This document shows positions 6,930 through 17,154 of a stretch of DNA of 22,073 nucleotides, piece after piece. The translations under genes were made by a program, and so were the position numbers. This DNA comes from a virus. The notes under the pieces were generated by a model, which made no database searches, was not told where the DNA came from, and saw only the letters and a program-made list of their open reading frames with translations. Numbering within the stretch: the first letter of the stretch is position 1; every line of letters starts with the position of its first letter. The stretch spans positions 1 to 22,073 of the IMG/VR virus record IMGVR_UViG_3300046674_000282. One strand, written 5' to 3'.

Positions 6930-9900
6930 CTACTTGCGGCCCGCGCGTACGGTGCTGCGGACGCGGGTGAACCCGGCGGTCACACGGCCGTCCGCGCGCC
7001 CGTCGATGTAGGCGTTGAACTCGGTGCCGTCCTCGACGACCAGGCGCAGCCGCGAACCCGCGGCCAGAGCCTGGGTGCTCATAGCGGCCGCGCTGTAGGA
7101 CGCCGGTGAGATGGCCGGGACGTCGGGCACCATGGCGTCCGCGGTGCGGGCCGCGGCGGCCGCGACCTCGGAGGCGGTGTTGTCCAGGCCGACGACGACG
7201 CCGCGCGCCGTGTTCGCGCCGACGGGCATCAGTGCCTTGGCCGGGCTGTGGATGCCGAGCTTCTTCTCGATGCCCTTGACCAGCGCCTCGCCGAGCTTGT
7301 TCATCTCGGCCTGGAGTTCCTTCTCCTGGCTCTTCAGCCCGAGCAGGAACCCCTTGGACGCGTTGGTGCCGGCGTCGAACATGGCGTCGGCCATGGTGTT
7401 GCCGTACGAGGTCGACAGCTTGCTGCCCGACTTGGCGAGCGCGTTGAGCTGCGCGAGCTGATTCTTGGAAGCCCCGGCCACCAGGTCGATCAGCGGACCA
7501 CCGGGGCCCTGCCCGACGAGCTGACTGATGATGCTCTGGGAGACCCCCTTCTTGGACAGCCCGGCGATCTGCTGCTGGAACGCCTTGGCCTCCGCCTGGC
7601 GGGACTTGAGGCCGCCGAGCAGGTCCGAGAACGTGCCGACGTCGCCGACCTGGCCGAGGCCGAAGAAGTCCGCCGCGGACTTCTTCTGGTCGGCGGCCGC
7701 GGACTTGGCCGCCTCGAGCTTCGCATCGACCGAGTCACGCTGCTTGGCCAACGCCTGCAGCTTCGCGGAGGCCTTCGTGGTCGAGGCCGCCAGCTGCTTG
7801 CCCGCGCCGCCCGCAGCCTTGAGGTCTTTGGTGAGCTCGTCGAACGCCTTCTTGATGTCGGCGGCCGACGCGGTCAGGACCTTGTGCACCGACGTGAGAT
7901 CGCCAGGGACCTGCTTGCGCGCGGCCGCCTGGGACTTGGCCCCGCTGGTGCCCTTCGCGAAACCGCGCAGCGCACCGAGCTGGGAGGCCATCGCCATCGA
8001 CGTCGCGGAGTCCCACACGGTGGCGCCGCCGGATCCGAGCCGCATCAGCTCGGGACCGTTCTCGCCGACCCAGAACGTCTCGCCCGCGCGCGGCCGGCCA
8101 CCACCCGCATAGCCCTTGGGCGACTTGGATGCGTTGGCCTGCTGAACGCTGGTGATGTTGCCGTAGCGGGACACGATGTACCGGATCGCTGCCGCCACGT
8201 TGGCGACCGGGTCGAGGATGCCGCGGCTGCGGAGCGACGACGGGACGTACGCGCTCCACGTACCGGGGATCGTCTGCGCCAACCCCTGGCTGGGGTGGCC
8301 GGCCTTGGCGTTGGAGTCGGTGCGGTTGATCGCGCTGGCGTTCCAGCCGGACTCGCGCGTGATGAGCGTGTTGAGGCCGGACAGCCACTGCGCGAGCGTG
8401 CCGGGCGGCGGCACACCGGCCGCCGACAGGGCGGCCTTGATGATCGCCGCGTGCTGCCCGCTGGGGATCTTCCCGCCGCCGAAGGAGCTGGACGCGCCCT
8501 TCTTGTCGGCCTCCTTGGCGTAGCCGAACAGGGAGTCGAGCATCTTGTCGGGGATCTTCGCGATCATGTCGCCGATCCCGGAGCCGAGCCCGGGGATCCT
8601 CGACAGGAGCGGGTTGACCACCGCGTGGACGCCCGCCCGCGCGGACGCGGCGAGCGTGTCCTTGAGCCAGCTCGCCCCCTCCTTGATCTTGTCCCAGGCG
8701 GACGAACCCCAGCCTGCCGCGGTGGATCCGGCCTTGCCGATCCAGCCGAACAGGCCGCCGCCGTCCTTGAAACCGGGCGCTCCGCGGCCGCCGGACGCGG
8801 CCCACTTGCGCATGGCCATGACCGCGCCGTGTCCGCCCGCGCCCTTGACCTCCTGCGCGGTCCAGACGTGCTCGTTGCGAGAGAGCCACGCGGGCACGTC
8901 GTCCGAGGTCTCAGTGCCCGCGCCGTAGACCGGCCCGCCTCGAGCGAACTTGAACGTCTTCAGCTTCGGGGACCCGAACGCGTCGGCGACCTTGTTCCAG
9001 ACGCCGACGATGCCCTTGTTGTAGACCGTGTTGACGATGAAACTGATGGGCGCCTTGGCGATCGCCTTGACCTTGTCCCAGGCGATCTTGATGGCGTCCT
9101 TCGCCGTACTGAACGCCTTGCCTACCTGTCCGATCGCTGTCTTCAGCGCGTTGAACACCGGCTTGATGCCCGCGTTGTAGACGGTGGAGATCACCGACTT
9201 GATGCCGTTAAGGGCCGGGGTGACGGCCGTGGTCCACAGCCATTTCGCCCAGTTGCCGACGGTCTTGAGCCCGCCGACGAACCAGCCGAACACCACCTTC
9301 ACGCCGGTCCACAGGACCTTGAATCCGGCGACGATCCAGCCGACAACGGGGGAGATCGCGGCCGTCCAGAGCCAGGTCGCCCATCCGGCGACGGTCTTGA
9401 TCCCGAGTGTGAGGTAGCCGAACACGACTTTCACACCGGCCCAAAGGAGCTGGAATCCTGCGACGATCCACCCGATCACGGGTGAGATCACGGTGGTCCA
9501 GAACCACACGGCGACCGAAGCCACCGCCCGGAACGCGGACATGACCAGACCGAAGTAGATCTGTACGGCCGCCCACCACAACTTGAACCCGGCGATGATC
9601 CAGTCGATTACCGGGGAGATCGCGTTCTTCCAGAGCCAGACCGCGATGGCGCCCAGGGTGTAGAACAGGACGCCCATGACCGTCAGGTAGATCTTGACGG
9701 CGGTCCACCAGACCTTGAACACGGCGATGATGAACCCGACAACGGGCTTGATCACCGCGCTCCACAGCCAGACGAACACGCCGCCGATGGCCTTGAGCCC
9801 GACCATCAGCCCGGCGAACGCGGGCTTGAGGACGTTGTTCCAGGCGTACAGGGCCGCGGTCTGGATGCCCGCCCAAGCAGCCTGCACGATCGCCCGGAAC

Positions 9901-11420
9901 GTTTCGGACTTCTTGTAGGCGATGACGAGGGCGACGCCCAGGGCGACCACGGCGATGGCGACCAGCACGAACGGGTTCAGAGCCATGACCGAGTTGAGGA
10001 GTGTCTGCGCGGCGGCCCAGCCCTGGGTGACCAGGGCGATGCCGCGGCTGGCGAGGGAGTAGATACCCATGATGCCGACGACCGTGCTGGTGATGATGGC
10101 CTGCGCGGACAGGGCGAGGGTCACACCGCCGATGAGGACGGCGATGGGGGCCAGCCAGATGCCCCACTCCTTGATCCAGTTGACGACCGCGGTGCCGCCC
10201 GTCCACAGAGCCTTCAGCGTGGGGATGAGGAGCGATGCCACGGTGCTCGCAACCGCCTTGAGTGGCGGCAGGAGTACCCGGTTCGCGAACCCCCCGGCGC
10301 GTGCGAGGACGGGCAGGACCTGGCCGCCGAGGACGTTGACGAAGGCCTGTTTGAGGCTCCGCTGGAAGACGGTGAGTTCGTGGGCGGGCCCGCTGTGGAG
10401 ATCCTTGCCGAGTTGCTTGGCCGAACCGGACACGGCCCCCAGGGACTGGACTGCCTTGGAGGGGTCCAGCTTGAAGAGGCTCGCGCCGAGCTCCTCGGCT
10501 TGGGTGCCGAAGAGCCCGACTGCGGCGGCCTGCTGCTTGACCGGGTCCTTCATCCCCCGGAGCTTGTCGAGCACGGTCTGCAGGCCGGCCGTGGCGCCCT
10601 TGCCGCCCTTGGCGATCTGCGCGGACATGTCCTTCGCGCTCAGCCCCAGGAGCTTGTAGGCGTCCTGGCTGGTGGTCGACATGTCGATCGAGCGGATCGA
10701 GAACTCTTTGAAGGAGTCCGCGATGATGTCCGTGTCGCGGGCGCCGCCCTTGAGTCCCTGCGAGAACAGGCCGAGCGCGGTCTTGGAGTCCAGGCCGAGT
10801 TTCTTGAGCTGGACCGGGTATTCCTGGAACGTCTCGAGGAGGTCCTCGGCGTTCGGGCCCAGCTTCTGGAACCCGGTGGTGACGACGTCGAGCGCCGCCT
10901 CTGCGTTGGGCGCCAGCCCGTTCTTCAGCTGGGCGGAGACGGCCTGCGACTGCAGACTCATGTCCGTGCCGAACGTCGTGGCGACGTCCGACATCTGCGC
11001 GGCGATGGACTTGAGCTGCTTGTTCGTCGCGCCCGGAGGGGCGAGCCCGCCCGACACGACGGCCCGGACAGCCTCGGCGCCGGCTGCGACGTCCTCGGTG
11101 ATGCCCTTCGCGTACAGCTGTCCGGCGATCTTCCCGTAGCGGGCGGCCTCGCCGGCCGTCGCACCCAGCTGGCCCTTCAGCGTGGCGGTGATGTTCGCCT
11201 GCTCCATCGCCTCGCTGATGCCCGCCACGAGCAGGGCGCCCGCAGCCGCACCGGCGGCGGCCGCGCCGACGAGGAGCTTGTCCTTGAGCCCGCCGCCCGC
11301 CTCCTCACCCGCCTCGTTGCCCGCCTCGGCGGCAGGGCCGATGAGCTGGCTGCGCAGCTCGGACGAGATGCCCTTCACCGAGGGAATGACCTGCAGCGTG
11401 GCGTAGCCGACATTGGGCAT
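6930..11420 (-). CDS. Tail tape measure protein with embedded transglycosylase-like domain
   Basis: At 1496 residues this is the longest gene in the window, in the standard place after the tail assembly chaperones. Its length should set tail length. Residues 30-130 hold Ala/Gly-rich helices and a tape-measure-type N-terminal region. Hydrophobic, possibly membrane-inserting segments occur around 420-452 and 480-502. Residues 551-770 contain five aromatic 44-residue repeats, listed separately. Residues about 985-1095 look like a lytic-transglycosylase/SLT domain: ITRESGWN (candidate catalytic E1023) followed by GHPSQGLAQTIPGTW. Charged coiled-coil stretches occupy about 1160-1245. The C-terminus has GIHSPAKALMPVG (1389-1401), a motif frequent near tape measure ends. 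The ATG at 11420 has a G-rich tract (GGGGGT) nearby. The muralytic domain probably helps DNA entry through the cell wall. Confidence 0.93.
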   Translation of the reverse strand: MPNVGYATLQVIPSVKGISSELRSQLIGPAAEAGNEAGEEAGGGLKDKLLVGAAAAGAAAGALLVAGISEAMEQANITATLKGQLGATAGEAARYGKIAGQLYAKGITEDVAAGAEAVRAVVSGGLAPPGATNKQLKSIAAQMSDVATTFGTDMSLQSQAVSAQLKNGLAPNAEAALDVVTTGFQKLGPNAEDLLETFQEYPVQLKKLGLDSKTALGLFSQGLKGGARDTDIIADSFKEFSIRSIDMSTTSQDAYKLLGLSAKDMSAQIAKGGKGATAGLQTVLDKLRGMKDPVKQQAAAVGLFGTQAEELGASLFKLDPSKAVQSLGAVSGSAKQLGKDLHSGPAHELTVFQRSLKQAFVNVLGGQVLPVLARAGGFANRVLLPPLKAVASTVASLLIPTLKALWTGGTAVVNWIKEWGIWLAPIAVLIGGVTLALSAQAIITSTVVGIMGIYSLASRGIALVTQGWAAAQTLLNSVMALNPFVLVAIAVVALGVALVIAYKKSETFRAIVQAAWAGIQTAALYAWNNVLKPAFAGLMVGLKAIGGVFVWLWSAVIKPVVGFIIAVFKVWWTAVKIYLTVMGVLFYTLGAIAVWLWKNAISPVIDWIIAGFKLWWAAVQIYFGLVMSAFRAVASVAVWFWTTVISPVIGWIVAGFQLLWAGVKVVFGYLTLGIKTVAGWATWLWTAAISPVVGWIVAGFKVLWTGVKVVFGWFVGGLKTVGNWAKWLWTTAVTPALNGIKSVISTVYNAGIKPVFNALKTAIGQVGKAFSTAKDAIKIAWDKVKAIAKAPISFIVNTVYNKGIVGVWNKVADAFGSPKLKTFKFARGGPVYGAGTETSDDVPAWLSRNEHVWTAQEVKGAGGHGAVMAMRKWAASGGRGAPGFKDGGGLFGWIGKAGSTAAGWGSSAWDKIKEGASWLKDTLAASARAGVHAVVNPLLSRIPGLGSGIGDMIAKIPDKMLDSLFGYAKEADKKGASSSFGGGKIPSGQHAAIIKAALSAAGVPPPGTLAQWLSGLNTLITRESGWNASAINRTDSNAKAGHPSQGLAQTIPGTWSAYVPSSLRSRGILDPVANVAAAIRYIVSRYGNITSVQQANASKSPKGYAGGGRPRAGETFWVGENGPELMRLGSGGATVWDSATSMAMASQLGALRGFAKGTSGAKSQAAARKQVPGDLTSVHKVLTASAADIKKAFDELTKDLKAAGGAGKQLAASTTKASAKLQALAKQRDSVDAKLEAAKSAAADQKKSAADFFGLGQVGDVGTFSDLLGGLKSRQAEAKAFQQQIAGLSKKGVSQSIISQLVGQGPGGPLIDLVAGASKNQLAQLNALAKSGSKLSTSYGNTMADAMFDAGTNASKGFLLGLKSQEKELQAEMNKLGEALVKGIEKKLGIHSPAKALMPVGANTARGVVVGLDNTASEVAAAAARTADAMVPDVPAISPASYSAAAMSTQALAAGSRLRLVVEDGTEFNAYIDGRADGRVTAGFTRVRSTVRAGRK
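9111..9770 (-). repeat. Five tandem 44-residue (132-base) repeats inside the tape measure gene
   Basis: Repeat units begin at tape measure residues 551, 595, 639, 683 and 727, a spacing of exactly 44 residues each time. Each starts W(L/F)W, followed by a (I/V)xP motif about nine residues on, then in most copies an (I)xxF..xW/LW..V segment. Copies 3 and 4 are the most alike (ISPVIGWIVAGF and ISPVVGWIVAGF); copy 5 decays after its first third. 44 is four times 11, matching the 11-residue unit described for some tape measure proteins. Repeat gain or loss would change tail length in fixed steps. Confidence 0.85.
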
Positions 11421-11446: not shown

Positions 11447-12228
11447 TCAGGTGATCTCTCCCGCTGCCAGTGCCAGGCGCCGCTCGGCGGCACGGACGAG
11501 GGCCGCCTTGCGCTTGGCCACTCGCTCAGGGGAGTTCTTGTCAGGCCCTCGGCCGATGCCCGGGCGGGCCATGGGCTTGGGCGGCTTGGTCTGCTTGGAC
11601 GGCTTGACGCCATCGTTCGACCGCTGCCAGTTCGCGATCCGCAGCTCGTCGACCGTGATCGCCTGCAAGTGCTCCTGCAGACTCCACAGTCCGTCGCTGT
11701 CGCCCATCGCCAGCCGCGTGCGGGCGCGTGGGGGGAGCTGACGGACGTAGCCGCCGAGCTCCCGCCACGTCAGCAGCGGCCGGCCGTACGGGTCGCGTGC
11801 GAACAGGTCCGACAGGCGGATCCCGTAGTGCTCGCGGAGGTCGGCCTGTACTGCCTCGCCGTGCTCGCTCAGGAGTCGGACGAGGCCGAGGATTCCCCCG
11901 GCTCCATCCCGCAGTGCTTCTGCCAGGCCTTGAAGAGGGGCATCAGCTTGTACTGCGGCATGGGCACCTTGCGGAAGTCCTCCCACTCGTCGCCGAGCGC
12001 CAGGCGCAGGGAGCCCATGACGGCGTTGGCCTCGCCGCTGTCGGCGGCCGCCAGGAGCTCCCAGCAGTCGAGGTCCTGCATGTGCTGGAAGGTGAAGCGG
12101 CGGCTGTTCCAGTGGACACGGAACGGCGTGCTGGCGACCTCGGCCTTGACGGCGTCGAGGTTGAAGTCGAACGGCTGGTCATCCGGCGTCTGGGCCGGGG
12201 ACTTGGTCGCGGTTCGGGCGGTGGCCAT
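11447..12228 (-). CDS. Tail assembly chaperone G-T, product of -1 frameshift
   Basis: This is the long form of the tail chaperone, made by slipping back one base near the end of the G frame. The first 111 residues come from frame G (12228 to 11896). Reading then continues in the -1 frame from 11896 to the TGA at 11447, adding 149 residues for 260 in total. The downstream frame is clearly coding (RLSDLFARDPYGRPLLTWRE, then VDELRIANWQRSNDG) but has no plausible start of its own: the nearest upstream ATG lies inside G and has no ribosome binding site. The tail is basic (RVAKRKAALVRAAERRLAL). In lambda-like phages the G and G-T forms together chaperone the tape measure during tube assembly, and the tape measure follows 26 bases downstream here. 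Confidence 0.82.
11853..11899 (-). promoter_or_regulatory. Programmed -1 frameshift site with downstream stem
   Basis: The minus strand reads CCG GGG GAA in the G frame, so the heptamer is G GGG GAA (11899-11893). Slipping one base back re-pairs GGG perfectly, and GGA is then decoded in the G-T frame. Six bases later, GCCTCG (11886-11881) can pair with CGAGGC (11858-11853) across a 22-base loop, giving a GC-rich stem at the usual distance for a stimulator. The second tRNA would re-pair imperfectly (GAA to GGA), so a single-tRNA slip is also possible. The frame relationship is seen directly; the exact slip point and the role of the stem are inference. Confidence 0.72.
11869..12228 (-). CDS. 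Tail assembly chaperone G (short form)
   Basis: A 119-residue protein starting with ATG at 12228, two bases after the stop of the preceding gene. It probably coats the tape measure while the tail tube polymerises. The first 20 residues are Ala/Thr/Pro-rich and likely flexible. The core (about 21-108) is a helical domain with FRVHWNSRRFTFQHMQDLDC and GDEWEDFRKVPMPQYKL. The last ten residues after PG (110-111) are Ser-rich and are replaced in the frameshifted form. No strong Shine-Dalgarno precedes the ATG, so translation probably depends on coupling to the upstream gene. Evidence is position between tail tube and tape measure plus the overlapping -1 frame. Confidence 0.82.
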   Translation of the reverse strand: MATARTATKSPAQTPDDQPFDFNLDAVKAEVASTPFRVHWNSRRFTFQHMQDLDCWELLAAADSGEANAVMGSLRLALGDEWEDFRKVPMPQYKLMPLFKAWQKHCGMEPGESSASSDS

Positions 12229-12230
12229 GG

Positions 12231-12593
12231 TTACTCGCTTTCGCTTTCAGTGCTGTCGGGCTTGGGCTTGCTGACCTGGACGGACTCGGCGAGGAGGGTG
12301 AGCCGGACGGTGCCGGAGCCGTCGGGTGCGAGGCTGATGTCCATCGGCGCCCGGGCGACGAGCCACGGGAACGGCTTGCCGTCCACCGTGATAGCGCTGC
12401 CGCAGACGCTGATCTCTTTCGCGCATGTGGGCTCGGCCTGCTTCTCCGGCCGACTGACTGCGCGTCGCTCCTCGAGGAGCGCGGCCGCCACGCGGGAGCG
12501 CATGTTGCGGGGCAGGACCTCGCCCTCCTGGACGAGGCCGAGCTGTACGGCCTTGGCCGCGAGCTCCGTATCGGTGAACTGCTGCAGGGGCAC
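12231..12593 (-). CDS. Conserved-looking phage protein of unknown function
   Basis: A 120-residue protein encoded between the major tail protein and the tail chaperones, starting with GTG at 12593. A purine tract (GGAAGGAA, 12611-12604) lies about 11 bases upstream, a rather long spacing, and is flanked by the repeated arms described separately. Residues 1-45 look helical (FTDTELAAKAVQLGLVQEGE, then RSRVAAALLEERRAV). Residues about 66-108 look like a beta domain with ITVDGKPFPWLVARAP and TVRLTLLAESVQV, a pattern I have seen at this position in other actinobacteriophages. The last 12 residues are acidic and Ser-rich. It could be a tail assembly factor; no motif assigns a function. Confidence 0.7.
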   Translation of the reverse strand: MPLQQFTDTELAAKAVQLGLVQEGEVLPRNMRSRVAAALLEERRAVSRPEKQAEPTCAKEISVCGSAITVDGKPFPWLVARAPMDISLAPDGSGTVRLTLLAESVQVSKPKPDSTESESE

Positions 12594-12595
12594 GT

Positions 12596-12678
12596 CGTCG
12601 CGGTTCCTTCCGTCGCGGTTCGGGTGGGGTGGTGCACCGGGGCGCGGTCCGAACCGCGACGAACTGCCCGCGCCCCGG
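12596..12678 (-). repeat. Interleaved inverted repeats (pseudoknot or switch topology) after the major tail gene
   Basis: Pair A is a perfect 13-bp inverted repeat (12611-12623 with 12649-12661). Pair B is a perfect 11-bp inverted repeat (12637-12647 with 12668-12678). Their arms alternate, so each hairpin's loop contains one arm of the other. In minus-strand RNA the order is B', A', B, A with connectors of 6, 1 and 13 bases. A third copy of the A arm (11 bases, 12596-12606) can also pair with 12651-12661 and ends two bases before the GTG start at 12593. The element fills the whole gap between two genes. There is no U-tract, so a simple intrinsic terminator is not obvious. Confidence 0.8.
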
Positions 12679-12684
12679 CGGCTG

Positions 12685-13455
12685 TCAGGCCGTGATGGTG
12701 ACGGCGCAGGTGTCGGTCTGTCCCTGGTAGCTGGCCGTGACGGTCGCGGATCCAGCGGCGATACCGGTGACGAAGCCCGCGCTGACGGTGGCCTTCGTGG
12801 CGTCCGAGGTCGTCCAGGTCGCCTCCGCGGTGACGTCGGCGGTGGTTGCGTCGGAGTACGTGGCCGTCGCCGCCAGGGCGCCGATCTCGCCGTCGGCCAC
12901 GGACAGCGTGGCCGGAGTGACGGAGATCGACTCCAGCACCGGGGTGGACTGCCGCTCGAAGAGGTAGCCGTCGGCGGTCGGGAAGATCGTCGCGGCGATC
13001 GTGGCCGACTCGAGATCGGTCTCGTTCTCGCCGTGGTCTCCGTCCAGGGAGCACTCCGCGTACTGGCTCGTGATGAGCCGGCGCACCTTGTCTCCCTCGC
13101 GGGTCTCGAACGCCACGAGGACCTGCTCCGGGCGCGGGACCTTGACGCGGGTGTCGGTGGACCCGGGCCACACCAGCCGCCTGGTGAACTCGTTGTCCTC
13201 GAGCGCGGTGAAGTTCTTGGTCAGCTTGAAGTGCTGGCGGGACGTGCGGACGAGCACGCCGCCCCAGGCGAACTTGTCGTCCGTGTCCTCGTCGCGGGTC
13301 TCGGGGAAACCCTCGTCGCCGTCGAGCAGACCGACGAGTTTCCAGTCCCCGCTGAACGCGGTCTCCGCATCAGCGGGGAGCGTTGCGGCCAGGTTCCAGG
13401 ACACGTACACGTCTGCGTCGGTCCAGAGATTTGCCTTTGTCGGGTCGCCGGACAT
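12685..13455 (-). CDS. Major tail (tube) protein with C-terminal Ig-like domain
   Basis: A 256-residue protein that should form the tail tube. Residues about 1-170 are the tube domain: WKLVGLLDGDEGFPETRDED, then FAWGGVLVRTS and EQVLVAFETREGDKVRRL are typical of siphovirus tube proteins. Residues about 174-256 are a separate bacterial Ig-like (Big_2-type) domain: LESISVTPATLSV, then ATWTTSDATKATVSAGFVTG and GSATVTASYQGQTDTCAVTI. Such add-on domains usually decorate the outside of the tube. The ATG at 13455 has AGAGGAGG 7 bases upstream, one of the strongest ribosome binding sites in the window, in line with a protein needed in many copies. An unusual RNA-type element follows the stop codon. 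Confidence 0.9.
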   Translation of the reverse strand: MSGDPTKANLWTDADVYVSWNLAATLPADAETAFSGDWKLVGLLDGDEGFPETRDEDTDDKFAWGGVLVRTSRQHFKLTKNFTALEDNEFTRRLVWPGSTDTRVKVPRPEQVLVAFETREGDKVRRLITSQYAECSLDGDHGENETDLESATIAATIFPTADGYLFERQSTPVLESISVTPATLSVADGEIGALAATATYSDATTADVTAEATWTTSDATKATVSAGFVTGIAAGSATVTASYQGQTDTCAVTITA

Positions 13456-13507
13456 GCGGCGCCCTCCTCTCAGATCAGGGTGGTGGGAGCCGCGGTTCAG
13501 CGCGGAG

Positions 13508-15825: not shown

Positions 15826-17154
15826 TCAGGCGGTCAGGTCGATCTCGACGAACGCGGACGGCTGCAGGACACCGAAAGCTGCGCGCATCTCGGCGAGGAT
15901 CGCGACGAGGTTGCGGACGAAGAAGTCCAGGTGCGAGTCGGTGACCTGGATGGTCGCCTGCTCGCGGTCCCACAGCACGGCCTTGCGCCAGTCGCCGACG
16001 TAGCCGGTGCCCGCCGGGACGGCCTCGGTCTCGATAACCGGGACACCCCACAGGACCTGGGCCGTGCCCGCACCGCCGGGACCCCCGAAGTAGAACCGGG
16101 CCTCGTTGTCCTGCAGGAGGTCCAGCGCTTCGGTGTCCGACGGGTTGAGCAGGTAGGCGTTGGCCATTGACCGGCCGACGGTGCGGACCTTGGTCTTGGC
16201 CTTGCGGGTCGTGGTGAGCAGGTCGGTGTCCCACGCCTGCGACTGGGTGCCGCTCACCGTGGCGACGCCCTCGAAGTTCTCGCCCGTGTTGTCGCCCTGG
16301 ACCATCTGGTCCTCGAGCTCCTCCTCGAGCCCGTACATCAGGAACGCGTCGATCAGGGTCCGGACCTGCGCCGCATCGGACATCGCGCGCTTGGTGGCCG
16401 GCATCCAGTGAGCGATGGTCTTGACCGCAGCGGTGACCTTCGCCAGGGCCACGCCCGACTCGGGCTTGTAGCCGCCGCCGGCGTTGTTCACCAGCGCGCC
16501 CGCACCGCCCGGCGCTGTCGGTGCCGCCGCGGACGTCGCCTCGGCGACCGGGGCCGCGTTGTTCGTCACGGAGGTGACACGCACGTACTCCACCGTGTCC
16601 GACGTGGTGGTGCCCGGAGTGACGACGTCGCGTAGGCGCAGCGGCCGCTGGAAGACGTCGATGCCGACCTGCAGGCCGCGCCAGTCGTTCTGGACCAGGG
16701 CGCCGCCGGAGGTGTCGGAGCCGCCGGTTACCAGGCTCTTGACGCCGAACATCTCCGACTGGACACGCTGCTGCGCGCCGAACTTACCGTTGACGGCCTT
16801 GGCCATCAGGCCCTTGTACTCGGGCGAGTCGGTGAACTGCTCGCCGAGGGACTTGCCCTTCTCCGGCAGGTGGAAGCCGGACGCGGTCTGCCGCGTGCCG
16901 TCCTTCTCCGTCTTCGCGTTCAGGGCGATGTCGTCGCCGAGCTCGGACAGCGTCCGCTTCAGCTCGGCGTCGCCCTTGAGACCTTCGATCGCCGCCTTGG
17001 CCGCGGTGGCCTTGGACATGTGATCGCGCAGTTCCGCGGCCTCTGCCTCGGTGAACCCGCGGTCACCGTCCTCCTCGGCCCGGGTCGTGATCTCCCGCGC
17101 CTTGAGGAGGTGGTGCCGCATCTCCTCGCTGAGTTCCTTGATCGTCTTGGCCAT
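15826..17154 (-). CDS. Major capsid protein, HK97 fold
   Basis: A 442-residue HK97-family capsid subunit. Residues 1-85 are highly charged helix (IKELSEEMRHHLLKAREITT and onward), equivalent to the delta scaffolding domain, and are probably removed by the protease encoded just upstream. The mature core starts somewhere after about 100. SLVTGGSDTSGGALVQNDWR leads into the long-loop region, followed by LRLRDVVTPGTTTSDTVEYV, then MVQGDNTGENFEGV and GRSMANAYLLNPSD, and finally VWGVPVIET-type and GDWRKAVLWDREQATIQVTD segments of the A domain. The C-terminus (NLVAILAEMRAAFGVLQPSA) is also typical. The ATG at 17154 is 6 bases after the protease stop, with GAGGAG very close upstream. No separate scaffold gene is present. 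Confidence 0.95.
   Translation of the reverse strand: MAKTIKELSEEMRHHLLKAREITTRAEEDGDRGFTEAEAAELRDHMSKATAAKAAIEGLKGDAELKRTLSELGDDIALNAKTEKDGTRQTASGFHLPEKGKSLGEQFTDSPEYKGLMAKAVNGKFGAQQRVQSEMFGVKSLVTGGSDTSGGALVQNDWRGLQVGIDVFQRPLRLRDVVTPGTTTSDTVEYVRVTSVTNNAAPVAEATSAAAPTAPGGAGALVNNAGGGYKPESGVALAKVTAAVKTIAHWMPATKRAMSDAAQVRTLIDAFLMYGLEEELEDQMVQGDNTGENFEGVATVSGTQSQAWDTDLLTTTRKAKTKVRTVGRSMANAYLLNPSDTEALDLLQDNEARFYFGGPGGAGTAQVLWGVPVIETEAVPAGTGYVGDWRKAVLWDREQATIQVTDSHLDFFVRNLVAILAEMRAAFGVLQPSAFVEIDLTA

Follow-up and report, generated by a model that had tools for sequence, protein, structure and literature searches.

A candidate antisense-loop pseudoknot element for translational control in the tail module of actinobacterial phages

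Results

The window analysed here is a 22-kb stretch of viral DNA (22,073 nucleotides of IMG/VR record IMGVR_UViG_3300046674_000282), and our subject is an RNA element in the gap downstream of its major tail protein gene, which an earlier note had picked out from the letters of the DNA. Genes on the minus strand of the window run in the order capsid, connectors, major tail protein, a 120-aa gene, tail assembly chaperone (TAC) and tape measure, and all parts of the element also lie on the minus strand, that is, the mRNA strand (Table 1). The gap contains two perfect inverted repeats of 13 and 11 bp that interleave in the order a-b-a'-b'. Read along the mRNA, this gives the 5' arm of stem 1 (S1), a loop with the 5' strand of stem 2 (S2), the S1 3' arm, a linker, the S2 3' strand, the sequence GAAGG, another copy of the S2 3' strand and a GTG start, with connectors of 6, 1 and 13 nt. 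The repeats, their coordinates, order and connectors, and the onset 7 nt past the major tail stop codon, had all been given exactly in the earlier note. Its judgement that the repeats are unlikely to be a chance product also holds, as the interleaved 13/11 pair is unique within the window and was absent from all 200 dinucleotide shuffles made of the whole window; weaker 9/9 interleaved pairs arose by chance in 17 of 200 such shuffles.

Table 1. Positions of the element, the repeat copies and the genes in the window
Feature	Sequence	Position	Strand	Remark
S1, 11-bp inverted repeat		12637-12647/12668-12678	-	
S2, 13-bp inverted repeat		12611-12623/12649-12661	-	
S1 5' arm	CCGGGGCGCGG	12668..12678	-	starts 7 nt past the major tail stop codon (12685-12687)
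S2 5' strand, antisense loop of the hairpin	CGTCGCGGTTCGG (12661-12649); TCGTCGCGGTTCGG (12649..12662)	12649..12662	-	loop complement and family swap tests
S1 3' arm	CCGCGCCCCGG	12637..12647	-	from sequence; paired in homologues
C/A-rich linker L3	TGCACCACCCCAC	12624..12636	-	13 nt, unpaired in the model
Repeat copy 1, S2 3' strand	CCGAACCGCGACG	12611..12623	-	adjoins the Shine-Dalgarno on its 5' side
Likely Shine-Dalgarno of the next gene	GAAGG	12606..12610	-	from sequence; flanked by copies 1 and 2, sharing 1 nt with copy 2
Repeat copy 2	GAACCGCGACGA	12595..12606	-	perfect; between Shine-Dalgarno and GTG start; rivals copy 1 in pairing with the loop
Repeat copy 3	CCGAACCGCGAC	12206..12217	-	perfect; codons 4-8 of the chaperone gene
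Short repeat copy	GAACCGCG	13491..13498	-	8 nt; ahead of the major tail start (13455)
Capsid gene		15826-17154	-	
Major tail protein gene		12685..13455	-	C-terminal Big_2 immunoglobulin-like domain
First downstream gene, 120 aa		12231..12593	-	function unassigned; weak match to phrog_18254
TAC gene, first frame		11869..12228	-	weak match to phrog_8595, tail assembly chaperone; second frame to 11447
Tape measure gene		6930-11420	-	

Sequence and covariation give the layout of an H-type pseudoknot, in which two stems are present and the loop of the first pairs with a downstream single strand. In pseudoknots of this type, a 13-nt linker is long enough to cross an 11-bp S1. The calculated duplex energies in the window are -28.0 kcal/mol for S1, -30.2 kcal/mol for the loop with copy 1, -25.4 kcal/mol for the loop with copy 2 and -25.8 kcal/mol for the loop with the TAC copy; by these values the alternative pairings are comparable. 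The single a/a' pairing of the earlier note is present as S2; what the note had missed is that S2 has several competing partners, namely copy 2, the TAC copy and the copy in the major tail leader.

We collected homologues through a search with the major tail protein, which yielded 17 genome loci (nearly all from Streptomyces), 69 viral contigs and 205 phage records. The same layout recurs in more than ten sequence-unrelated families, in phages of Streptomyces, Arthrobacter, Microbacterium, Curtobacterium, Gordonia, Nocardia and Mycobacterium and in an M. abscessus prophage, and it is found with a different tail-protein family as well, that of mycobacteriophage TM4 and its relatives. The loop/repeat pairs include GTCGCGGTT/AACCGCGAC, GCGCGGTT/AACCGCGC, GCGCGGG/CCCGCGC, GCGTGGG/CCCACGC, GTGCGGT/ACCGCAC, GTGCAGC/GCTGCAC, TGGGTGG/CCACCCA, CGCGGTGT/ACACCGCG, CCGACTC/GAGTCGG, TCCTGGTG/CACCAGGA and CGGGAGCC/GGCTCCCG. 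Conservation of sequence alone is therefore ruled out, because unrelated sequences keep the same architecture. The exact motif was found at the tail locus in 31 of 32 viral contigs. A motif match in the locus that we label L162 was discarded as chance; it lies in an unrelated coding region without an S1 5' arm.

For the statistics, loops were set by the S1 hairpin and downstream regions by the Shine-Dalgarno (SD) and start codon, both independently of the pairing. Among 105 distinct candidate elements, the loop had a complement of at least 6 nt in 101 and of at least 7 nt in 98, with two sites in 64 of the candidates, one in 33, three in 4 and none in 4. When loops were swapped among 11 families, the sum of best complements was 92 against a permutation mean of 56 (0 of 300,000 permutations as good), each own loop/region pair being the maximum of its row and column; with 13 families the values were 106 and 67 (0 of 200,000), and in an exact permutation test the identity was the best of 362,880, figures that, given the shared ancestry of the families, measure the specificity of the match and not a number of independent events. 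In all 13 Arthrobacter-type members, the loop stays matched to both copies across a C/U to G/A change; when the pairing was slid by 1-3 columns in this group, the match fell to 25-71% with copy 1 and to 28-57% with copy 2. The tail-protein tree requires at least four changes of this Arthrobacter-type loop base and 14 of the loop type over 29 rows, counts that recombination could alter.

Both stems also carry compensatory changes. In 40 Streptomyces-type members, two-sided changes were observed at five pairs (0 of 500 shuffles as good), and S1 was paired in 98.9% of cells across 40 homologues. Its mismatches, with both kinds penalised alike, comprised 60 G.U and 12 A.C, indicating selection on RNA of the mRNA sense; this excess, together with the fixed orientation to SD and start, disfavours a function at the DNA level. 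The earlier note had suggested an H-type RNA pseudoknot, or two hairpins excluding each other, in the gap that follows the major tail gene and had held that a loss of complementarity in relatives without compensation would speak against it; the structure passed this comparison in more than 100 homologues. The architecture scanner by itself was only moderately specific (93 matches at the element and 89 elsewhere in 1.8 Mb of strand), and the argument therefore rests on covariation and position. Taken together, pairing between the loop and the repeats at translation starts, on the RNA strand, is well supported by sequence comparison.

One to three copies surround the SD and start of the first downstream gene, and one to three lie at the TAC start if another gene precedes TAC. 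In most members, copy 1 is just 5' of the SD, and the last copy abuts the SD or falls in the stretch from SD to start codon. Two or three copies are present in the TM4 family and in phage Olga, and the final one includes the SD itself (CACCAGGAGG, CCCACCAGGAG); the last copy of cluster G phages likewise includes it, and some single-copy members (L038, L056, L062 and L070) retain only the copy adjacent to the start codon. The distance from the upstream stop codon to the onset of S1 is 1-13 nt in the Streptomyces family and 5-37 nt in families of the Arthrobacter and SF1 types, and in Gordonia and Nocardia phages one extra gene lies between the major tail gene and the element. Because other genes can intervene after the tail gene, and because the last TM4-like copy includes the SD, the element, by its placement, is tied to the downstream translation starts and not to the major tail stop. 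The position claimed by the earlier note, at the end of the major tail gene, describes the gap in the window correctly but does not extend to those relatives in which a gene intervenes.

Repeat copies are also dispersed over other gene starts. The TAC-start copy is present in 54 of 54 Streptomyces-type members whose second gene was scored and in 5 of 5 GTGCGGT-type members, with further copies in L121 (CACACCGCG-ATG) and L103 (GCTGCACATCCTG-ATG), and its sequence tracks the loop (identity best of 5,040 permutations). Streptomyces-type TAC copies use the Arg codon CGA in 53 of 54 cases, an uncommon codon that accounts for 11 of the 213 Arg codons counted in window genes; the RTAT-type residues encoded by this copy are conserved as well, and protein constraint is a possible source of the conservation. 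Many members have a further copy in the leader of the major tail gene, at about 35-45 nt from its start, and this copy also tracks the loop (identity best of 720 permutations). The major tail start had been chosen as a negative control and itself proved to carry repeats. At a stringency of 10 nt in 8-kb Streptomyces loci, matches clustered in many members at only three places, namely the major tail leader, the gap and the TAC start. Loop complements were found at 6 of 45 tape-measure starts.

With regard to the neighbouring genes, the stop codon of the 120-aa gene (12231-12233) lies 2 nt ahead of the TAC start (12228). This short gap suggests translational coupling, and hence that a single switch could set both genes. 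A GGGGGAA-type slippery sequence is present at 11891-11905 (minus strand) near the end of the chaperone frame, with a second frame open to 11447, and is likely the usual tail-chaperone frameshift site. A role of the element as a frameshift stimulator was rejected, the likely slippery site near 11900 being about 700 nt downstream. Relatives with tail proteins of about 173 aa, too short for a Big_2 domain, keep the RNA element.

Several relatives depart from the common form. In the gaps of the SF1-like relatives L126-L136, L137 and L139, the hairpin and the CCACCCA repeats were lost together, and these are natural knock-outs. The gap after the major tail gene in the TM4 group (L193-L217) has two to three tandem CACCAGGA-type copies, the last with the SD, and the loop of this group, TCCTGGTG, is similar to the anti-SD. 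A run of about 26 C, unusual for a phage genome, occupies the linker between S1 and copy 1 in L092 (Zeta1847). Many SF1-like phages (gaps of L122-L155) have an extra short palindrome, for example CACCTCCGAAATTTCGGAGGTG, between the tail stop and the element. The annotated "pseudoknot RNA" non-coding RNA of phage Giles (10907-10974; 3470-3537 of L095) lies inside the gp17/chaperone reading frame without the loop/repeat layout and was treated as unrelated.

Discussion

We propose, with moderate confidence, that the locus encodes an antisense-loop/pseudoknot translational control element of the tail module. Sequence and covariation show a stable S1 hairpin in the mRNA with a loop of 7-14 nt that is complementary to short repeats at neighbouring translation starts; with the nearest copies, this loop would form an H-type pseudoknot in which the copies are mutually exclusive partners. 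The loop would serve as a built-in antisense, and its pairing with an SD- or start-proximal copy would block 30S access, limiting initiation at the first downstream gene as well as at the chaperone gene and lowering chaperone translation relative to the tube protein. Tandem copies would compete, the upstream one serving as a decoy or as the more permissive partner. A ribosome that finishes the major tail gene in the Streptomyces family would come close to the S1 base and could open the hairpin, coupling both rates. It is probable that the element acts by occluding start sites; we infer the direction (repression, not activation) and the choice between cis and trans.

A number of observations weigh against this proposal. 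A nested fold of similar energy (-54.2 kcal/mol) exists in the window, and tools for nested folds cannot score the pseudoknot. Pairing with copy 1 leaves the SD formally free, which would permit activation, and a single loop cannot occupy all copies simultaneously in cis. Most major tail leader copies, at their distance of about 35-45 nt, lie beyond the usual zone of direct start-site blocking. The chance rate of 7-nt matches is 13% in this GC-rich DNA, so that lone short matches carry little weight. Certain phages that have a related tail protein or share the gene order do not carry the element (phiC31, DelRio, Ruthy, Giles, Elener and L126-L139), which is thus not essential for this tail type. 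In L010, a natural loop mutant, the loop has a G-to-T substitution (GTCGCGTTTCGG) and the repeats are unchanged.

Among known systems, the repZ pseudoknot of the IncI-alpha plasmid ColIb-P9 is activating, with a hairpin loop that pairs beside the downstream SD while an upstream reading frame ends nearby. The present element resembles it in both respects, copy 1 offering the loop a pairing site just 5' of the SD, whereas repZ has one target, an antisense Inc RNA and a plasmid replication gene, and no tandem or dispersed copies. In the S15 (rpsO) operator, a pseudoknot at the ribosome binding site (RBS) controls initiation, a likeness to the element proposed here; it differs in having a ribosomal protein ligand, a single site and a host gene. 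This operator is mentioned in a 2010 review in which the T4 gene 32 operator was considered possibly the sole viral pseudoknot in translational autoregulation (PMC3014915). The gene 32 operator of T4, T2 and RB69 is the nearest phage analogue, sharing an mRNA pseudoknot upstream of the RBS followed by short repeats that overlap the RBS (PMC3014915). Its repeats are AU-rich, bind the protein gp32 and are not loop-complementary (PMC3014915), whereas those described here are GC-rich, complementary to the loop and recur at several genes; in the window we found no AU-rich UUAA(A)-type repeats for a gp32-like protein ahead of a gene for a single-stranded-DNA-binding protein, the downstream genes being the 120-aa gene and the chaperone. 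The SAS/ESAS of cluster K mycobacteriophages are likewise phage repeats near translation starts, some with inverted repeats (PMC3203893), and the TM4 group has both these and the element. The repeats of the element differ from them in sequence (CACCAGGA in TM4, others elsewhere) and in pairing with a hairpin loop, and the SAS/ESAS 13-mer GGGATAGGAGCCC was not found at the start site in the window gap or TM4-type gaps, which carry other repeats.

Several other readings have to be weighed against occlusion. The place of copy 1 just 5' of the SD would also suit a translational enhancer, in which loop pairing keeps the RBS open or recruits ribosomes, and the 1-13 nt between upstream stop and S1 in the Streptomyces family would fit coupling to translation of the upstream gene; however, pairing with copy 2, or with a copy that includes the SD, should block initiation, and L038, L056, L062 and L070 keep only the SD/start-side copy. 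We regard enhancement as unlikely. It appears quite unlikely, too, that transcripts end or are cut past the hairpin and so release the 3' end of the major tail mRNA as a small RNA, whose loop would pair in trans at the starts of the tail gene, the next gene (X) and TAC and let translation follow tail mRNA abundance. One loop does fit sites at as many as three gene starts that are separated by more than 1 kb, and lower-GC phages have a T-rich, terminator-like tail after S1, but the window and the Streptomyces family are without a U-tract and the nearest two copies lie within pseudoknot distance. A combined arrangement is a tentative possibility, namely an RNA regulon within one phage operon, where the hairpin loop at the 3' end of the tube mRNA would be a "key" for repeat "locks" at the tube, next-gene and chaperone starts, in cis and in trans; the tube mRNA level would then set chaperone and tube translation, and key and locks would have changed together many times in actinobacterial siphophages.

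A protein operator, with a phage protein such as the tail tube or chaperone binding the pseudoknot and then covering the repeats in the manner of T4 gp32 on its own mRNA, would match the gene 32 leader in layout (PMC3014915) and could even provide the signal for the proposed occlusion. We consider it very unlikely, as the repeat sequence changes completely between families while loop complementarity is kept, and no candidate RNA-binding domain was identified. The earlier note had left open a 3' stability or termination element or a translational switch, and it is the switch that the comparison favours. A strong GC hairpin does follow the major tail gene directly, and in the lower-GC relative L089 a GC hairpin with a U-tract forms a terminator-like structure; the window hairpin, by contrast, has no U-tract in positions 12400-12900, an extra gene can separate the hairpin from the tail gene, and the covarying repeats at two to three gene starts would be left unexplained. 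It is hence hardly credible that the hairpin serves the abundant tail mRNA as a leaky terminator or 3' stability element, with loop-repeat complementarity as a secondary feature. Overall, the interpretation in the earlier note was partly supported.

No Rfam family matched at the curated score in the window or in ten representative loci, and no description of the element was found in the open-access literature, where an account in a subscription journal could have escaped us; this agrees with the statement in the earlier note that no phage element of this form was known to it. It appears to be an RNA device, so far undescribed, by which the production of tail proteins is balanced. To our knowledge, apart from the chaperone frameshift little has been established on how siphophages obtain abundant tube protein but scarce assembly chaperone and tape measure from a single operon. 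The element is widespread and compact and is present in TM4 and several SEA-PHAGES phages, which makes it directly testable, and coevolution of one loop with the repeats at the starts of several genes would represent a new layout of RNA control.
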